From the NCBI GenBank assembly GCA_025449835.1, contig JANWIO010000059.1:1-57975 (forward strand): a stretch of 57,975 bases of DNA. The letters are read 5' to 3'. Every line of letters begins with the position of its first letter. Position 1 is the stretch's first letter. A program made the translations under genes and the position numbers. The DNA is from Vampirovibrionales bacterium (lineage in GTDB: Bacteria; Cyanobacteriota; Vampirovibrionia; Vampirovibrionales; JAGQHJ01). Under the pieces are notes generated by a model, which did not search any database, was not told where the DNA came from, and was given only the letters and a program-made list of their open reading frames with translations. Positions 10,325-57,975 of this stretch are shown here, piece after piece.

Positions 10325-11312
10325 TTTACCGTCATCCGAAGTTCAACGAAAACCCAAAGACTATAAATCAGACGTCCATCCTGATTGGTGTCCTGGTTGT
10401 GGTGACTTTGGGATTGTCAACGCCATTCAACAAGCAATGGCTGAGTTACAACTGAAACCTTCTCAGGTTTTAATGTACTCTGGTGTTGGGTGTTCTAGTA
10501 AAACCCCCCACTACATTAACACTTATGGGGTTCATACCCTCCATGGACGGAGCCTTCCCTTTGCAACGGGCTCTCACCTGGCAAATCCTGATTTGCAGGT
10601 AGTGGTTGCAGGTGGTGATGGTGATGGTTATGGGATTGGTGCCGGTCACTTTTTAAATGCTGGTCGCCGAAATGCGAATTTGGCATACATTGTGTATGAC
10701 AATGAAGTGTATGGCTTAACCAAAGGGCAAGCTTCACCGACCTTAAAACTCGGTGTGAAGACAAAGTCTTTGCCGTTACCCAACCCAAATGAGGGTATAA
10801 ATCCTTTGGCCATTGCTGTTTCTGCGGGATACACCTTTGTGGCTCGTAGTTATGCCTTTGATGCCAAGCATTTAAAAGAAACGATTAAGCGGGCGATTCT
10901 TCATAAAGGGATGGCCTTGGTGGACGTTCTTCAGCCTTGCCCGACCTACAACAACCTGCGCACCAAAGATTGGTTTGCTGAAGAAGTTGAAATTGGCGGG
11001 ACAAAATACCCCCGAACCTACCATCTGGATGAAAAAGGCTATGATGGTAAAGTTCATAACCCGGCTGATGAAAGGGAAATTGAAGCCAAGAAACTTCAAG
11101 CACTCCAAAAAGTAGAGGCATCAGAGCCTCAAATTGCCCTGGGTGTTTTTTACGAAGTGGAACTGCCGACCTTCTTAGAACGGGTAAAACCCAATATTCC
11201 ACTGTTGCAAAAATACACCAGTTGCAAAATGCCCATTGAAGATCCCAGCACCCACGTGCCCACCACGGATCTTTCGGCAGCCTACGCAGAGGTGTTAACC
11301 AACACCCACTAA
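10314..11312 (+). CDS. korB: 2-oxoacid:ferredoxin oxidoreductase, beta subunit
   Basis: The thiamine-diphosphate and 4Fe-4S carrying partner of KorA. Seen: HPDWCPGCGDFGIV (first two cluster cysteines), GVGCSSKTPHY, the ThDP/Mg motif GGDGDGYGIGAGHF followed about 20 residues later by YDNEVYGLTKGQ, and a later cluster cysteine in QPCPTYNN. The length of 332 residues is normal. The start overlaps the end of korA, so the two are co-translated. A strong intrinsic terminator follows 30 bases after the stop, closing a two-gene operon. Substrate (2-oxoglutarate versus pyruvate or other oxoacids) cannot be settled from reading alone. Confidence 0.9.
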   Translation: MVTNLPSSEVQRKPKDYKSDVHPDWCPGCGDFGIVNAIQQAMAELQLKPSQVLMYSGVGCSSKTPHYINTYGVHTLHGRSLPFATGSHLANPDLQVVVAGGDGDGYGIGAGHFLNAGRRNANLAYIVYDNEVYGLTKGQASPTLKLGVKTKSLPLPNPNEGINPLAIAVSAGYTFVARSYAFDAKHLKETIKRAILHKGMALVDVLQPCPTYNNLRTKDWFAEEVEIGGTKYPRTYHLDEKGYDGKVHNPADEREIEAKKLQALQKVEASEPQIALGVFYEVELPTFLERVKPNIPLLQKYTSCKMPIEDPSTHVPTTDLSAAYAEVLTNTH

Positions 11313-51559: not shown

Positions 51560-51891
51560 AGAACGTCTCTCCTGTATAAATATTACATTTATAACAAAAA
51601 ACAATTTATGTCTTTTACGACAGTCATGTTACAACAAGCTCTTCAGTAAACAAATAAATTTATTGATTTGTTTTGAATTGTAAAGTTAATAGTCATTTAA
51701 CAGATAAATGAATAAACAAAAAGCAGTAAACAACAAATAGTTGATGATATTTTGATTCAGGTTGAAATCTCTTGTGTAGAGCGAGGAAACAGTTTTAACT
51801 AGGTTTTCATGTCCTCCTGAGGATGCAGGTTGGCATGCTTTGTGCTTGAATACTGATACTTGGAAGAGTGTTGATTCAATGGTGAAAGCAA
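51560..51891. promoter_or_regulatory. Shared promoter region of cas12e and the divergent unknown pair
   Basis: A 332-base AT-rich region. CAGTAAACAA occurs at 51644-51653 and again at 51724-51733, and a variant AATAAACAAA at 51711-51720, which could be operator sites for a shared regulator. A small hairpin CCTC-CT-GAGG lies near 51813. GGTGA at 51881-51885 is the likely ribosome site of cas12e. No clear -35/-10 is visible. Confidence 0.4.
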
Positions 51892-54800
51892 ATGAAAATG
51901 GTCAAGGAAACTAAAGTTTCTTCAAGAAGAAAAAGTATTAATAAAACGCTTTATGAGACACATAAGCAACAATCTCTAAATACCAACCTGAAAGGGCAAC
52001 CTGTTAAGAGTAGTCGAACCGTCGTAGTTCGGGTTGCTGATCCAACCAATCCCAGGTTTGTAGATGTAAATCAAAAATTTTCATTTCCAGCCCGAGAACA
52101 GGATATTGCTCTTCTAAAGGATTTATTGAGTGATTTCGGATTGGCACGCCACTCCGTGATGGAAGACATTTGGCAAGACTTTCAACAAAATGAAGCCTTC
52201 TATATCCAGGAAGCACAGGAAGTTGAGTATGCTGAAAAGCATGGAACGAATATAAGCCGTTTTACCACTGAAGAAGGTGAGGTAATTTCTACTCCCTTTA
52301 GTTGCCAAGAATGTCAAAAACCTCTTTATGTTCATTATTATGACCCAATTCAGGATAAGAGTAAAAAGCCAAAACGCTATTATTTTGCAAGATGCATCGA
52401 AGAAACCCACAAACGTGGTATTAAACTATCTGACAAAAAGGATGTTAACGATTCTTCTAAAACTATGTTTGATATTAAAAAGTTTAAAGCCCAGCCATTA
52501 TCAAACCATTTCTCTGCTAAATACATTACTGGTAGTAAAACGAAAAATAGTTATGAAAATTGCTTAAAACCCTTTGAATTACCAAAAATAAAAAGACAAT
52601 GGGAACGTTCTGTTGGCGATTCACTTCGGCAAATTGCAGCTAGGGATTTAGCGGGGTTCCTGGACAAATATTATTCCGTCAAGGAGTCTATTCAAAAAAC
52701 GATTGAACATAATAATAAGCAGATTGATTCCAACAGCCTGAAATATGGGTTATCCAAATACCAAGTTTCACCCTTGAACCTCTCCTTGCTTTCATCTATT
52801 AATGGACGAGATGATATTGACGCTTATAATCGACTTGTCTCTACTTATAATACCTGGCTGAATGAAACCTGTTGGCAACACCCAGAGTATGGAAAAGAAC
52901 TTAAGGAAGCATTGCCTAAGTTAAAGCGTTTAAAAGGCTACCCCTCTTTTCCCATCATTGAAAAAGAGCAAAGTCGTTTTCAATATACGGAAGAAGAACT
53001 TGGACTAAAGTTTGAACAATTGATTGCTGACCTTGAAGCTAACTGGCATGTTCATCTTGAACAGTTGACCGATGGTATGTTTCATAATTTTTTAAAACGT
53101 CACAGTCCTCGGGTTATTTGGAAAAAACTACCAGAATATATTGATGATATATCCCCTCCTAAACGCCTCTATTTGAAAAGAAAAGATGAAAAGCAAAAAT
53201 CCCAAAAACAACCTCTGCAATTCAAAGCGACCGAACGCATTGGAAATTGGCTATTTTATGAGTATAAGCAAAAGAACCAGCCCTTGAAAACAGCGTTGAT
53301 AAATACACTGAAGCGTATTGACCAAAAGATTGGTGTACTGAAATTTCATTATCAGAAACAAAAACAGAATGATAAGGAAAATAGGGATATTCAGTCGTAT
53401 CAGCAACTTATCAAATGGTATCAAGCCAAGACAACCCTTCTTCTCGAAGCCCTCCATCCATCCTTGGATACGACAAGTGAGGAACAGAAAACGCTTTATT
53501 GGGAGGTTATCTCTCAAGCCAAAGATTTGTACGGATTGCTCAGAGGAGACCCTTTCAAAAAGAAATTAGAACGAAAAACATTTGAGGTTGTTGGGTTCTC
53601 ATCCTCTGGGAAAACGGGAAAAACTTCTCTTCAGTACGATGCAATCCTTTCAATTTATATCTCTGAAAAGAATGTACCGGAATATTACTTGCTGCTCCAA
53701 CCCCTGAAAAAAGAGAAAAAATGTAAATTTCTTTTAAATGTTGATGAACGGGTTAATCTGACCAGCCTATCCCCCGGCTGGTATGGTTTTTGGAAGGATG
53801 GAGGTAATGACACAACAGTTTTATCGCCCATGGAAGTGAATTTTACTGAAGAAGCTATTATCAGGCTTCCGTTAATCTTTGGTGAACGTCAAGGACAACG
53901 GTATTTGTGGAACAGAATATTCCCTTTAGCATCCTCAACAGAGATGGGCAAATTTCGACTCATGAATGCTCGTGTCATTGAGCAAAGCCTTGCAACTGAC
54001 TTGAAAGATGAAAGGCTAAGAAATAAATATCGCAAGCAAGAAGGACTTTATATTGCCATTGCTTTTGAGAAGGTGGCAGAACATGGGGTACTGGATGATA
54101 AAAGATGGCAATATCAAACAATTTTAGGAGTGGATCGGGGTGAGAAAATTCCTCTGGTTGCCAGATTACTTGATTTGGATGGTAATCCATTACTTGTAGA
54201 TGTTGAAAATGGACAAGATCCATCGATGGGGATACAAATTGGTGTGGATCATTATGCTATTCAGAAAAAATGGGCTGAGAAAATCAAACAGCAACAGAAA
54301 ATAGGTTCTGCTCAAGTCAATGTGGATAGTAACCGTGGGAAACATGTTGCTGATCAGATGATTAACAATGCTGTAGCCCAACTCTTGGATATTGCTAAGT
54401 CTCATAACGCCTTAATTGTATTTGAAGATTTGTCCAGAGGTTTTGGAAGGAGAGGCTCGAACACATATATGACACTCCAGCAGTATACCCGCTTGGAGGA
54501 TGCTTTAATCCGAAAGGCCCAGGAAGTCGGTTTATATCCAGCTAAAGGAGATCTTTTGACGAACTGTCGCAAGGGGATTTTAGCAAAAGTAATAGCTCAA
54601 CATACCTCTCAAACCTGTTCTGCTTGTGGCAGAATCAATAGCAAGGATGCTCTATCCAAAATCCTATTCTCAACCCTCCATAAAACGGACGGAAATTATG
54701 CTTTGAAACGTCCTGACGGTAGCTTGCTCTCTTTAAAAAAGACTGATTTAACCGAAGAAATAGATAAAATTCTAAAAAATGGACAATCCTTTCAGAATTT

Positions 54801-55306: not shown

Positions 55307-55951
55307 ATGTTTGAAGAAGAAAACCCACTTCTACCTGTTTCCTGGGTTGCTGATTATGCATTTTGCCAATGGGCAGGATATGCTTTCTTTACAGGTTTGG
55401 AAAATTTTGAACAAAAGAATACGGTTTATCAGGATAGCATTGCAGGCCATTTGAGTGTTCATGAGCAACAAAGCCGTTACCGGGAAAAAGGAATTGTTCA
55501 GAAAACGGATGTTTCACTCTCCCATGACATGCTCTACCTAACCGGTAAGGCGGATATGGTTGAGCTTTGGCCTGAAGGGAAAATTGTTCCCATAGAATAC
55601 AAACGTTCCGTTCCTGCCGAAGGGCCACACTTCCATCATCAGGTTCAGCTTTGTCTCCAAGCGCTTTGTCTGGAAAAACAGTATCAAAAGGATATTCCAG
55701 AAGGAGTTATATACAGCATTACCAGCCATCAAAGGGTGCCTGTTCCCTTGACTCCACTATTACGGGAACAAACTCTCAACCTGCTCTCTGAACTCAAAAA
55801 CAAGCTGAAATCTGGAAATCCAAATATGTTCCAAAAACGAAATGATCTGCTCTGCCGACAGTGTACGTTTTTCGAAATCTGCCTTCCACCTGTTTTCTTT
55901 GATGAGTTGAGAAAGACTTCTTCAGATTTTGCAGACCAGGAGGAATTTTAA
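55307..55951 (+). CDS. cas4: Cas4 CRISPR adaptation exonuclease
   Basis: Cas4 processes prespacers and helps select PAM-compatible ones with Cas1-Cas2. Seen: WVADYAFCQWAGYAFF with the first cluster cysteine, the nuclease core GKADMVELW and PIEYKRS (Asp...Glu-x-Lys), QVQLCLQALCLEKQY, and a C-terminal cysteine group CRQCTFFEICLP; four cysteines suggest an iron-sulfur cluster. The 214-residue length is normal. It lies 82 bases after cas12e, and its TAA abuts the ATG of cas1, so cas4-cas1-cas2 is translated as one unit. Confidence 0.92.
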   Translation: MFEEENPLLPVSWVADYAFCQWAGYAFFTGLENFEQKNTVYQDSIAGHLSVHEQQSRYREKGIVQKTDVSLSHDMLYLTGKADMVELWPEGKIVPIEYKRSVPAEGPHFHHQVQLCLQALCLEKQYQKDIPEGVIYSITSHQRVPVPLTPLLREQTLNLLSELKNKLKSGNPNMFQKRNDLLCRQCTFFEICLPPVFFDELRKTSSDFADQEEF

Positions 55952-56944
55952 ATGCGATATGATGGTTTGGAGCGTGTCCCCTTATATCTTTACGCAAAAG
56001 AGGATTACTCTTTAAAAAAATATGGCGACTTATTTCGCTTGTTCCGGGGAGAGGAACAAATTCAGAAAATTCCTGCCATTAAAGTAAATGAGATTCTGGT
56101 TTTCGGTGGGCTCACATTAACTTCTCCCGTAATCCAACTTTGTCAAAAGCACAAAATTAATATTCATTTTTTATCCGGTTCTGGCCAGTATCATGGTTCG
56201 CTCATTTTTGATCCAGCTAAGAACCTCTTTATCCGAAAAGCACAAGCTGAAATCCACCTGGATGACAAACGGCGTCTGGAGTTTGCCAAAGAGTTTGTGC
56301 TAGGAAAAATAACAAACCAAAAATGGGTTTTAGACAGTTTTAGAAAAAAACACCGATTTAACCCAAATATTGATTGGAATAAAATTGAATCTCTTGATTC
56401 ACTTCGTGGGGTGGAAGGGACGTATAGTCGCTTGTATTTTCAAGAACTAGCCAAGCAACTTAAAAACACTGATTTTTCCTTCAACGGACGCTCGAAACGC
56501 CCCCCAGCTGATCCGGTCAATGCGCTTTTGAGTCTTGGGTATACTTTCCTATTCAGTCGCCTTTTCTCATATACAACATTGATCGGTCTTGATCCCTATT
56601 TAGGTTTTTTTCATGAAAACTATTACGGCCGTCCTTCATTAGTTTGTGACTTGATGGAGCCATGGAGACCCCTCTTGGTCGATAAATTCATCCTAACGAT
56701 ATTGAATAGGAATGAATTGTCATTGGAAGACTTTGAACGGGTAGACGACAGCATAAAACTGAATAGTGAAGGTTTCAAGAAATTTATTCAGAAGTGGTAT
56801 ACAAACTTTGAGGTAGACAACCATACTTCAGGACGGTTTGAAACAGAACTGACATACCAAAAAGCGCTAGAGCTTGATACAAGGTTATTTGGGAAATCAT
56901 TGACACAAGAGATTGAAGCATATAAGGCTTATACCAGACCATGA
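55952..56944 (+). CDS. cas1: Cas1 CRISPR integrase
   Basis: The spacer-integrating subunit of the adaptation complex, 330 residues. Seen: a beta-rich N-terminal domain (IPAIKVNEILVFGGLTLTS), then the catalytic Glu in RGVEGTYSRLYF, His in LGFFHENYYGRPSL and the acidic VCDLMEPWRPLLVD. This set of metal ligands is complete, so it should be active. ATG immediately follows the cas4 stop (TAAATG), with AGGAGGAA upstream as ribosome site. The last 4 bases overlap cas2. Confidence 0.96.
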   Translation: MRYDGLERVPLYLYAKEDYSLKKYGDLFRLFRGEEQIQKIPAIKVNEILVFGGLTLTSPVIQLCQKHKINIHFLSGSGQYHGSLIFDPAKNLFIRKAQAEIHLDDKRRLEFAKEFVLGKITNQKWVLDSFRKKHRFNPNIDWNKIESLDSLRGVEGTYSRLYFQELAKQLKNTDFSFNGRSKRPPADPVNALLSLGYTFLFSRLFSYTTLIGLDPYLGFFHENYYGRPSLVCDLMEPWRPLLVDKFILTILNRNELSLEDFERVDDSIKLNSEGFKKFIQKWYTNFEVDNHTSGRFETELTYQKALELDTRLFGKSLTQEIEAYKAYTRP

Positions 56945-57216
56945 GGTACTTGATTTGTTATGATATTGAGGATGACAAACATCGTAATCGCCTTGTCAAA
57001 GTGCTTGAACAATATGGTGAAAGGGTCCAATATTCAGTTTTTGAAGTACAATTGCCGCCTAGCCTCCTGAAAACATTACGAAAGCGTCTGGTAGCGCAGA
57101 AAATAATAGGTAAACGGGATAGCCTGTTAATCTATCCTCTATGCGAAAGTTGCTACCCTAAAGTTGAACGAACCGGCAAGAACCCTTTGATCAATTCAAG
57201 CGGCATTGTGTTTTAA
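56941..57216 (+). CDS. cas2: Cas2 CRISPR adaptation protein
   Basis: The structural partner of Cas1, 91 residues. Seen: the ferredoxin-like start RYLICYDIEDDKHRNRLVK with the conserved Asp, YGERVQYSVFEV, and DSLLIYPLC. ATG overlaps the cas1 stop (ATGA). It ends the protein-coding part of the locus; the tracrRNA promoter begins within its last codons and the array follows. Confidence 0.95.
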   Translation: MRYLICYDIEDDKHRNRLVKVLEQYGERVQYSVFEVQLPPSLLKTLRKRLVAQKIIGKRDSLLIYPLCESCYPKVERTGKNPLINSSGIVF

Positions 57217-57234
57217 TGGCTAAACTGTTATAGT
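57206..57234 (+). promoter_or_regulatory. Promoter for the tracrRNA
   Basis: TTGTGT (57206-57211) and TATAGT (57229-57234) with a 17-base spacer. The predicted start near 57241 falls exactly where a tracrRNA upstream of the scaffold would begin. Confidence 0.55.
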
Positions 57235-57240
57235 TCCTTC

Positions 57241-57334
57241 TGGAGCCACAAGCTCTGGGCCATTTATTGGAAACTCTTCCTTTGAGTCCCGAACCCAGCA
57301 CGTAACGTGTATGGACAAAGTTGCTTCCTTACCA
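57241..57334 (+). ncRNA. CasX-type tracrRNA
   Basis: The segment reproduces the known CasX tracrRNA layout. CCTTTGAG at 57279-57286 corresponds to the ACTTTGAG element that pairs with the CAAAG at the repeat 3' end. The scaffold stem at 57295-57314 has the flanks CCAG...TATGG of PlmCasX with a different but still paired stem (CACG-TAA-CGTG). ACAAAG follows, then GCTTCCTTACC (57323-57333), which pairs with GGTAAGGAGC of the repeat except for one bulged T. A 5' hairpin GAGC-CACAA-GCTC is at 57243-57255. The 3' end is uncertain. Confidence 0.82.
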
Positions 57335-57347
57335 AATCTTTTATATT

Positions 57348-57370
57348 ACACATCTAACTGTGTGTTTTGT
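57348..57370 (+). terminator. Possible tracrRNA terminator
   Basis: ACACA (57348-57352) and TGTGT (57359-57363) with a 6-base loop, then GTTTTGT. A weak stem, but correctly placed just after the antirepeat. Confidence 0.35.
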
Positions 57371-57397
57371 ACTTTGAGAAAAGAATAAGGCGAAAGC

Positions 57398-57415
57398 CCT
57401 TACCTTATAAGGGTT
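57398..57415 (+). repeat. Perfect 18-nt antirepeat in the CRISPR leader
   Basis: CCTTACCTTATAAGGGTT is the exact reverse complement of repeat positions 7-24. A CTTTGAG (57372-57378) lies just upstream, as in the tracrRNA, but without the CasX scaffold stem. It could pair with the first repeat in the pre-crRNA or form part of a second tracr-like RNA. Confidence 0.8.
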
Positions 57416-57459
57416 AAGAAGATTTTTGTAACTTGCAAGGGTTTGTTTTATGAAAATGC

Positions 57460-57483
57460 TTTGATTGATAAGGGTTTTCAGAT
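57460..57483 (+). repeat. Degenerate inverted repeat copy in the leader
   Basis: CTTTGATTG followed by ATAAGGGTTTTCAGA matches both ends of the reverse-complement repeat with the middle deleted and one extra T. It looks like a decayed repeat in inverted orientation. Confidence 0.6.
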
Positions 57484-57554
57484 TTTAGGGATAAACTTTT
57501 CTCAACTCTTTAAAAGGCCAATGCTAAAAACCCTGAATATACAAGGAAAATGAG

Positions 57555-57975
57555 GTCTGAAACCCTTATAAGGTAAGGAGCATCATCAAAGGTAATCCGT
57601 CGGTTAACAATTTCTAGGATTTCAGTCTGAAACCCTTATAAGGTAAGGAGCATCATCAAAGATACTACTACACGTCAAACAGCGCAAGAGTTTGGTCTGA
57701 AACCCTTATAAGGTAAGGAGCATCATCAAAGTAGAGTTCTGTTGAGGGGTCTCCCGGTGGGGTGACGTCTGAAACCCTTATAAGGTAAGGAGCATCATCA
57801 AAGTAAAGAGCTAGATATGATTGTAGATCTTTACGGCCTAGTCTGAAACCCTTATAAGGTAAGGAGCATCATCAAAGTTATCAACATAGCCACCTTCAAA
57901 ACAAAGACCCACCGTCTGAAACCCTTATAAGATAAGGAGCATCATCAAAGATCAGGATTGCTCTAACGCTCCCAC
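57555..57975 (+). CRISPR. Type V-E CRISPR array, six repeats visible, continues past the window
   Basis: Six 37-nt repeats start at 57555, 57625, 57695, 57767, 57841 and 57914. Each begins GTCTGAAACCCTTATAAGG and ends GCATCATCAAAG, the ending shared with known CasX repeats (CATCAAAG). Five complete spacers are 33, 33, 35, 37 and 36 nt; a sixth is cut at 25 nt by the window edge. Repeats 1-5 are identical, while the sixth has one G-to-A change in the GGTAAGG part, which may mark the trailer side. Leader and tracrRNA lie on the cas2 side, so new spacers should enter at 57591. Confidence 0.97.

Follow-up and report, generated by a model that had tools for sequence, protein, structure and literature searches.

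Additional antirepeats, spaced like the array's repeats, between the tracrRNA and the array of a Cas12e CRISPR-Cas locus from a Vampirovibrionales bacterium

The antirepeats of tracrRNAs are thought to be derived from copied CRISPR repeats, according to PMC8730458, which also describes a long-form tracrRNA in type II-A systems and names ectopic crRNA-like RNAs of the CreA or scaRNA type. For Cas12e, PMC11246509 gives a duplex and a triple helix, lists as features of the tracrRNA a bulged antirepeat stem and a pair of U-tracts flanking three adenosines of the repeat, and describes tracrRNA duplexes as typically processed by RNase III. The loci of DpbCasX (L041) and LesCas12e (L042) each carry one strong antirepeat within 400 nt before the array, covering positions 13-31 and 13-33, respectively, of the reverse-complemented (RC) repeat. 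No natural locus with multiple antirepeats or a split tracrRNA was found in the papers searched, among them PMC9067536 and PMC6882279.

The window analyzed here is a stretch of 57,975 nt from a Vampirovibrionales bacterium (contig JANWIO010000059.1, C59 of a 2.9-Mb assembly with 167 contigs), and its right end encodes Cas12e, Cas4, Cas1 and Cas2 followed by a tracrRNA and an array, which together make up a type V-E CRISPR-Cas locus (Table 1). The order on one strand is the same as in the DpbCasX locus (MGRL01000067.1), and the type V-E effector is identified by a Cas12e family score above the curated cut-off. At 1110 amino acids this protein is longer than the solved PlmCasX and DpbCasX chains (978-986 amino acids), with about 30% identity over the aligned parts. 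The array repeats lie 70, 70, 72, 74 and 73 nt apart, start to start, with a single substitution in the last of them within the window (57914-57950). The array is split across two contigs; five repeats that end contig C94 (29369-29691, L039) are taken to be the other part of it, its terminal piece. The + strand of the leader gave no sigma-70-type promoter match, and a search of Rfam returned nothing relevant at E values up to 1.

Table 1. Features of the Cas12e locus at the right end of the window. RC, reverse complement of the repeat; AR, antirepeat.
Feature	Position	Strand	Basis or remark
cas12e (CasX), 1110 aa	51892-55224	+	NCBIfam NF045604, 373.7 bits (cut-off 200); PDB relatives PlmCasX, DpbCasX
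cas4	55307-55951	+	TIGR00372, PF01930
cas1	55952-56944	+	TIGR00287, PF01867
cas2	56941-57216	+	TIGR01573, PF09827
tracrRNA, ends approximate	57255-57345	+	alignment with DpbCasX tracrRNA
tracrRNA U-tract	57262-57264	+	TTT
tracrRNA CTTTG	57280-57284	+	sequence
tracrRNA scaffold stem	57286-57316	+	sequence
AR1, the tracrRNA's own antirepeat	57322-57333	+	RC-repeat positions 10-20, one-base bulge
AR2, perfect 18-nt antirepeat	57398-57415	+	RC-repeat positions 14-31, exact RC of repeat bases 7-24
AR3, inverted repeat with internal deletion	57459-57482	+	RC-repeat positions 1-7 and 23-36
Leader remainder, about 70 nt, presumed array promoter	57483-57554	+	by position only
CRISPR array, six 37-nt repeats reaching the contig end	57555-57975	+	start-to-start distances 70-74

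The region 57217-57340 aligns with the DpbCasX tracrRNA with a score of 42.1, equalled by none of 1000 shuffles. The features given in PMC11246509 are recognizable here by sequence only, namely the TTT tract, CTTTG, a repeat ending in CAAAG, and the bulged AR1. The tracrRNA of DpbCasX shares with that of the window the U-tract, CTTTG, the scaffold stem and an antirepeat; however, its single antirepeat leads straight into a strong hairpin carrying seven consecutive T, whereas three antirepeats are present in the window, and its + strand from AR1 to the array yields no match to the canonical terminator pattern. AR1, to which TTATA at 57341-57345 possibly belongs, has a score of 19 compared with 18.5 for the best third shuffle match, and its predicted duplex with the repeat is weak, at -17.4 kcal/mol compared with -32.1 kcal/mol for the single antirepeat of DpbCasX and -28.4 kcal/mol for that of LesCas12e.

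Matches to the reverse complement of the repeat were sought by alignment in the 338-nt interval that separates cas2 from the first repeat (57217-57554), and 1000 dinucleotide shuffles of the same stretch, in which the best, second and third matches reached maxima of 26.5, 20.5 and 18.5, served as the control for significance. The preliminary description of this DNA had reported a perfect 18-nt antirepeat in the leader, and AR2 bears this out, with a local-alignment score of 36 (18/18) against the shuffle maximum of 26.5. The third, internally deleted inverted repeat that it had placed at 57460-57483 is also present, with coordinates better given as 57459-57482. Both blocks of AR3 are free of substitutions, with one extra T, and the middle of the repeat is exchanged for TG; its gapped score of 25.5 exceeds the best second shuffle match, yet lies inside the range of best matches. 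AR2 and AR3 are confirmed as real and above chance. Across the whole 2.9-Mb assembly, with two mismatches allowed, the AR2 18-mer is matched outside the array at AR2 itself and nowhere else, and at three mismatches five matches occur elsewhere, which is the control level. Between AR2 and AR3 the repeat has a fourth inverted match, weaker than the others (57429-57444; 13/16, score 17), which was not counted as an antirepeat.

The arrangement is rare as well as real. Array flanks of up to 400 nt (minimum 100 nt) were surveyed in 3 Cas12e and 52 type II loci; of the 62 Cas9-bearing genomes, 59 were taken as 60 regions (G553, G557 and G577 were omitted), which together with the Cas12e loci gave 63 inputs, 8 of them without an array, and a spurious second array in L098 was discarded. 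Among the resulting 97 flanks of 55 loci, 15 hold one match scoring at least 22 and a single flank, that of the window, holds two; reversed flanks gave best matches of at most 21.5 and second matches of at most 17.0. Across the 52 type II loci there is no case of two strong antirepeats within 400 nt on one side, a result that gauges the rarity of paired antirepeats adjacent to an array and not that of extra tracrRNAs, because most type II tracrRNAs are not encoded beside the array. A further match in the LesCas12e locus, more distant from the array (11163-11192, score 25.5, within cas1) was discounted since the reversed control there reaches 24.0.

Set in a full reverse-complemented repeat, AR1, AR2 and AR3 start at 57313, 57385 and 57459, and the steps of 72 and 74 nt between them fall within the array's own period of 70-74 nt. 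When AR2 and AR3 are placed at random, the probability that both steps fall in this range is 0.0017 (0.006 under looser anchoring), for a test that is post hoc (made once the spacing had been seen) and for an AR3 whose deletion permits another anchoring, about 10 nt less. This register suggests a short inverted array, or the ectopic growth of an array at an antirepeat, with the tracrRNA antirepeat as the outermost copy. The best explanation, held tentatively and just short of an even chance, joins an origin of this kind to a likely effect, if any, on the first crRNAs. A short inverted (or ectopic) array would once have stood at the leader, its outermost copy now serving as the antirepeat of the tracrRNA and its inner copies, AR2 and AR3, having been trimmed down to blocks. 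Antirepeats that are copies of repeats within CRISPR loci are of the same kind; the window differs in having several inverted copies in a row, with the period of the array and adjacent to it. If true, three inverted copies at the array period, one of them used as a tracrRNA antirepeat, would offer a snapshot of the birth of a tracrRNA.

Decayed inverted repeats had been among the readings of the preliminary description, and the copies are indeed inverted and in array register, but their divergence comes in blocks and not as scattered substitutions. Taken as a full copy, AR2 matches in 18/18 positions of its core against 5/19 in its flanks; when 23 matches are distributed at random over 37 positions, a run of 18 appears with a frequency of 5e-5. 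AR3 owes its divergence to a deletion and a one-base insertion and carries no substitutions. This block divergence implies that the copies were partial and are young, or that pairing with the repeat has been kept. AR2 is unlikely to have arisen by simple decay from a full copy, and partial copying or selection must therefore be added to the inverted-array origin. The two would-be spacers between the antirepeats were compared with phages, where the first has no match and the best match of the second has an E value of 0.7; a 21-base piece of each has no exact match in viral contigs. The arrangement is probably left over from the process by which tracrRNAs are made, and there is a fair chance that it still affects the processing of crRNAs.

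Since the antirepeats, the tracrRNA and the array are all read from the same strand, a read-through RNA from the tracrRNA region into the array would be expected to fold AR3 on repeat 1 and AR2 on repeat 2 (or 3). Duplex energies with the repeat are predicted at -35.0 kcal/mol for AR2 and -25.5 kcal/mol for AR3, compared with the weaker AR1 above. Folding of 57217-57740 gives nested helices with 20.5 expected pairs for AR3 with repeat 1, 17.8 for AR2 with repeat 2 and 11.6 for AR1 with repeat 3, and AR2 favors repeat 3 over repeat 2 when 57340-57740 or 57390-57960 is folded. The fold-back on the first repeat that had been proposed for the extra antirepeats thus holds by prediction for AR3, while the preferred partner of AR2 is repeat 2 in some folded transcripts and repeat 3 in others. 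The folding energy of 57380-57661 has a z-score of -5.5 against shuffled leaders. Within AR2, the ten bases CCTTATAAGG are self-complementary and would allow the antirepeat to form a hairpin on itself. In these folds AR2 and AR3 could still pair with the guide precursor; the resulting long double strands would be open to cutting by RNase III and would compete with the tracrRNA for these repeats, and a present effect, if any, would fall on the processing and supply of the first crRNAs. With a tracrRNA end upstream of 57398 and an array transcription start downstream of 57483, both antirepeats would be absent from the RNA. Should transcription of the array still take in the extra copies, these would amount to a leader-borne control of crRNA processing.

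The main rival to the inverted-array origin, unlikely but deserving serious weight, takes AR1 and AR2 as the halves of one ordinary Cas12e antirepeat, separated by an insertion of 64 nt with a duplicated 7-mer (CCTTACC) at its borders and used by a long tracrRNA. This tracrRNA would extend to about 57425, with AR2 for a long RNase III duplex, AR1 for the mature crRNA, and CCTTACC permitting exchange between them. The two halves, RC 10-20 and RC 14-31, together cover RC 10-31, which is near the single antirepeats of DpbCasX and LesCas12e, and CCTTACC is present twice, at 57327-57333 and 57398-57404. The duplex of AR1 alone falls well short of those of the single antirepeats, whereas a fusion of AR1 with the second half of AR2 would reach -37.5 kcal/mol. 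However, a split antirepeat accounts neither for AR3 nor for the steps of 72 and 74 nt that resemble those of the array, and in a fold of the long form (57255-57425) together with a single repeat, it is AR2 that pairs with the repeat and not AR1. A weak hairpin (-4.2 kcal/mol) before TTTTGT at 57365 could also terminate the tracrRNA upstream of AR2, and no inverted ends were noticed by eye in the 64-nt insert.

A further reading has the cis-acting antirepeats of the leader gate the production of guides, the clamp of AR3 on repeat 1 and the duplex of AR2 tuning tracrRNA binding, RNase III cutting and the supply of the newest crRNAs. AR3 would hold both ends of repeat 1 and leave free the stretch used by the tracrRNA antirepeat, as AR3 is without RC 8-22 and AR1 binds RC 10-20, and AR2 would form a perfect duplex across the expected processing site of another repeat. 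Such gating is considered distinctly unlikely.

AR2 and AR3 might instead be hairpins of the leader or of the tracrRNA end, acting as an attenuator or terminator, in which the match to the repeat would count only through the partly palindromic nature of the repeat itself. AR2 with its neighbors can form an 8-bp hairpin (-8.9 kcal/mol) followed 7 bases later by TTTTTG, and the AR3 region folds on itself (-8.7 kcal/mol) ahead of TTTTAG, but neither hairpin fits the terminator pattern. A hairpin also needs no 18-base match to the repeat, and the two blocks of AR3 are left unaccounted for. This reading is improbable.

A second tracrRNA, or an autoregulator resembling the long-form tracrRNA that sends Cas12e to the cas12e promoter, had also been put forward, and both fared poorly. 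There are three copies of the motif CTTTGA in the region (at 57280, 57372 and 57459), a number reached or exceeded in 0.1% of shuffles, and AR2 thus has an upstream U-tract in the manner of a tracrRNA. The similarity of the surroundings of AR2 to a tracrRNA scaffold is nevertheless at shuffle level, with p 0.76 for 57341-57554 against the DpbCasX tracrRNA and p 0.31 against the window's own tracrRNA. A stretch at 57371-57421 that resembles a shortened Cas12e tracrRNA by eye (CTTTGAG, AAAGC and the antirepeat) was rejected as its alignment scores equal those of shuffles. On the minus strand, AR3 is without the stretch that AR1 pairs with. For an autoregulator, no match beyond chance was found between the cas12e promoter (51605-51900) and the leader and tracrRNA region, the longest shared stretches being 9 nt for the leader (p 0.62) and 9 nt for the tracrRNA region (p 0.2). 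Guide-like stretches behind AR2 and AR3 on the minus strand have no PAM-plus-seed match of more than 8 within the window, with TTCN taken as the PAM. A crRNA-sense handle of the CreA or scaRNA type (20 bases, up to 3 mismatches, from which more diverged handles would escape) gave 11 matches in the genome, all of them array repeats. The type II-A long-form tracrRNA of PMC8730458 is similar in being an antirepeat RNA that exceeds the minimal tracrRNA; the window differs in that no promoter-matching guide was found in it and that a longer tracrRNA there is putative. Both readings are very improbable. Chance or an assembly error is scarcely credible: the assembly is fragmented and the array is broken at a contig end, but AR2 scores far above shuffles and the antirepeats lie inside the contig, between the tracrRNA and the array and away from its end.

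No close relative of this locus was found in the collections searched. A Cas12e search of genome contigs gave two loci, and in 386 sampled genomes of the phylum the only Cas12e above the cut-off is that of the genome itself. No close relative of the protein was found among 18 genomes of the order or 382 sampled genomes of the class, and the latter contain no other Cas12e; the same holds for close relatives around DpbCasX (11 and 395 genomes) and LesCas12e (28 and 387 genomes). Protein and family searches found no close Cas12e relatives in viral contigs or plasmids. The repeat pattern is absent from the viral contigs searched and the leader from the plasmids, and in phages the only matches to Cas12e are weak ones of 27% identity at the level of RuvC, in 182 Salinibacter phage records. 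Three type II loci from the phylum of LesCas12e (L141, L151 and L152) are similar to the window in having a strong inverted match to the repeat adjoining the array and another candidate elsewhere in the locus; however, these are Cas9 systems, and the antirepeat at the array is single and at most about 12 nt from the array edge. The inverted partial repeats at these array edges lie at 13190-13213 in L141, 6170-6185 in L151 and 2102-2119 in L152, with a weaker one at 6653-6668 in L144, and three of these four loci also carry another antirepeat candidate elsewhere.
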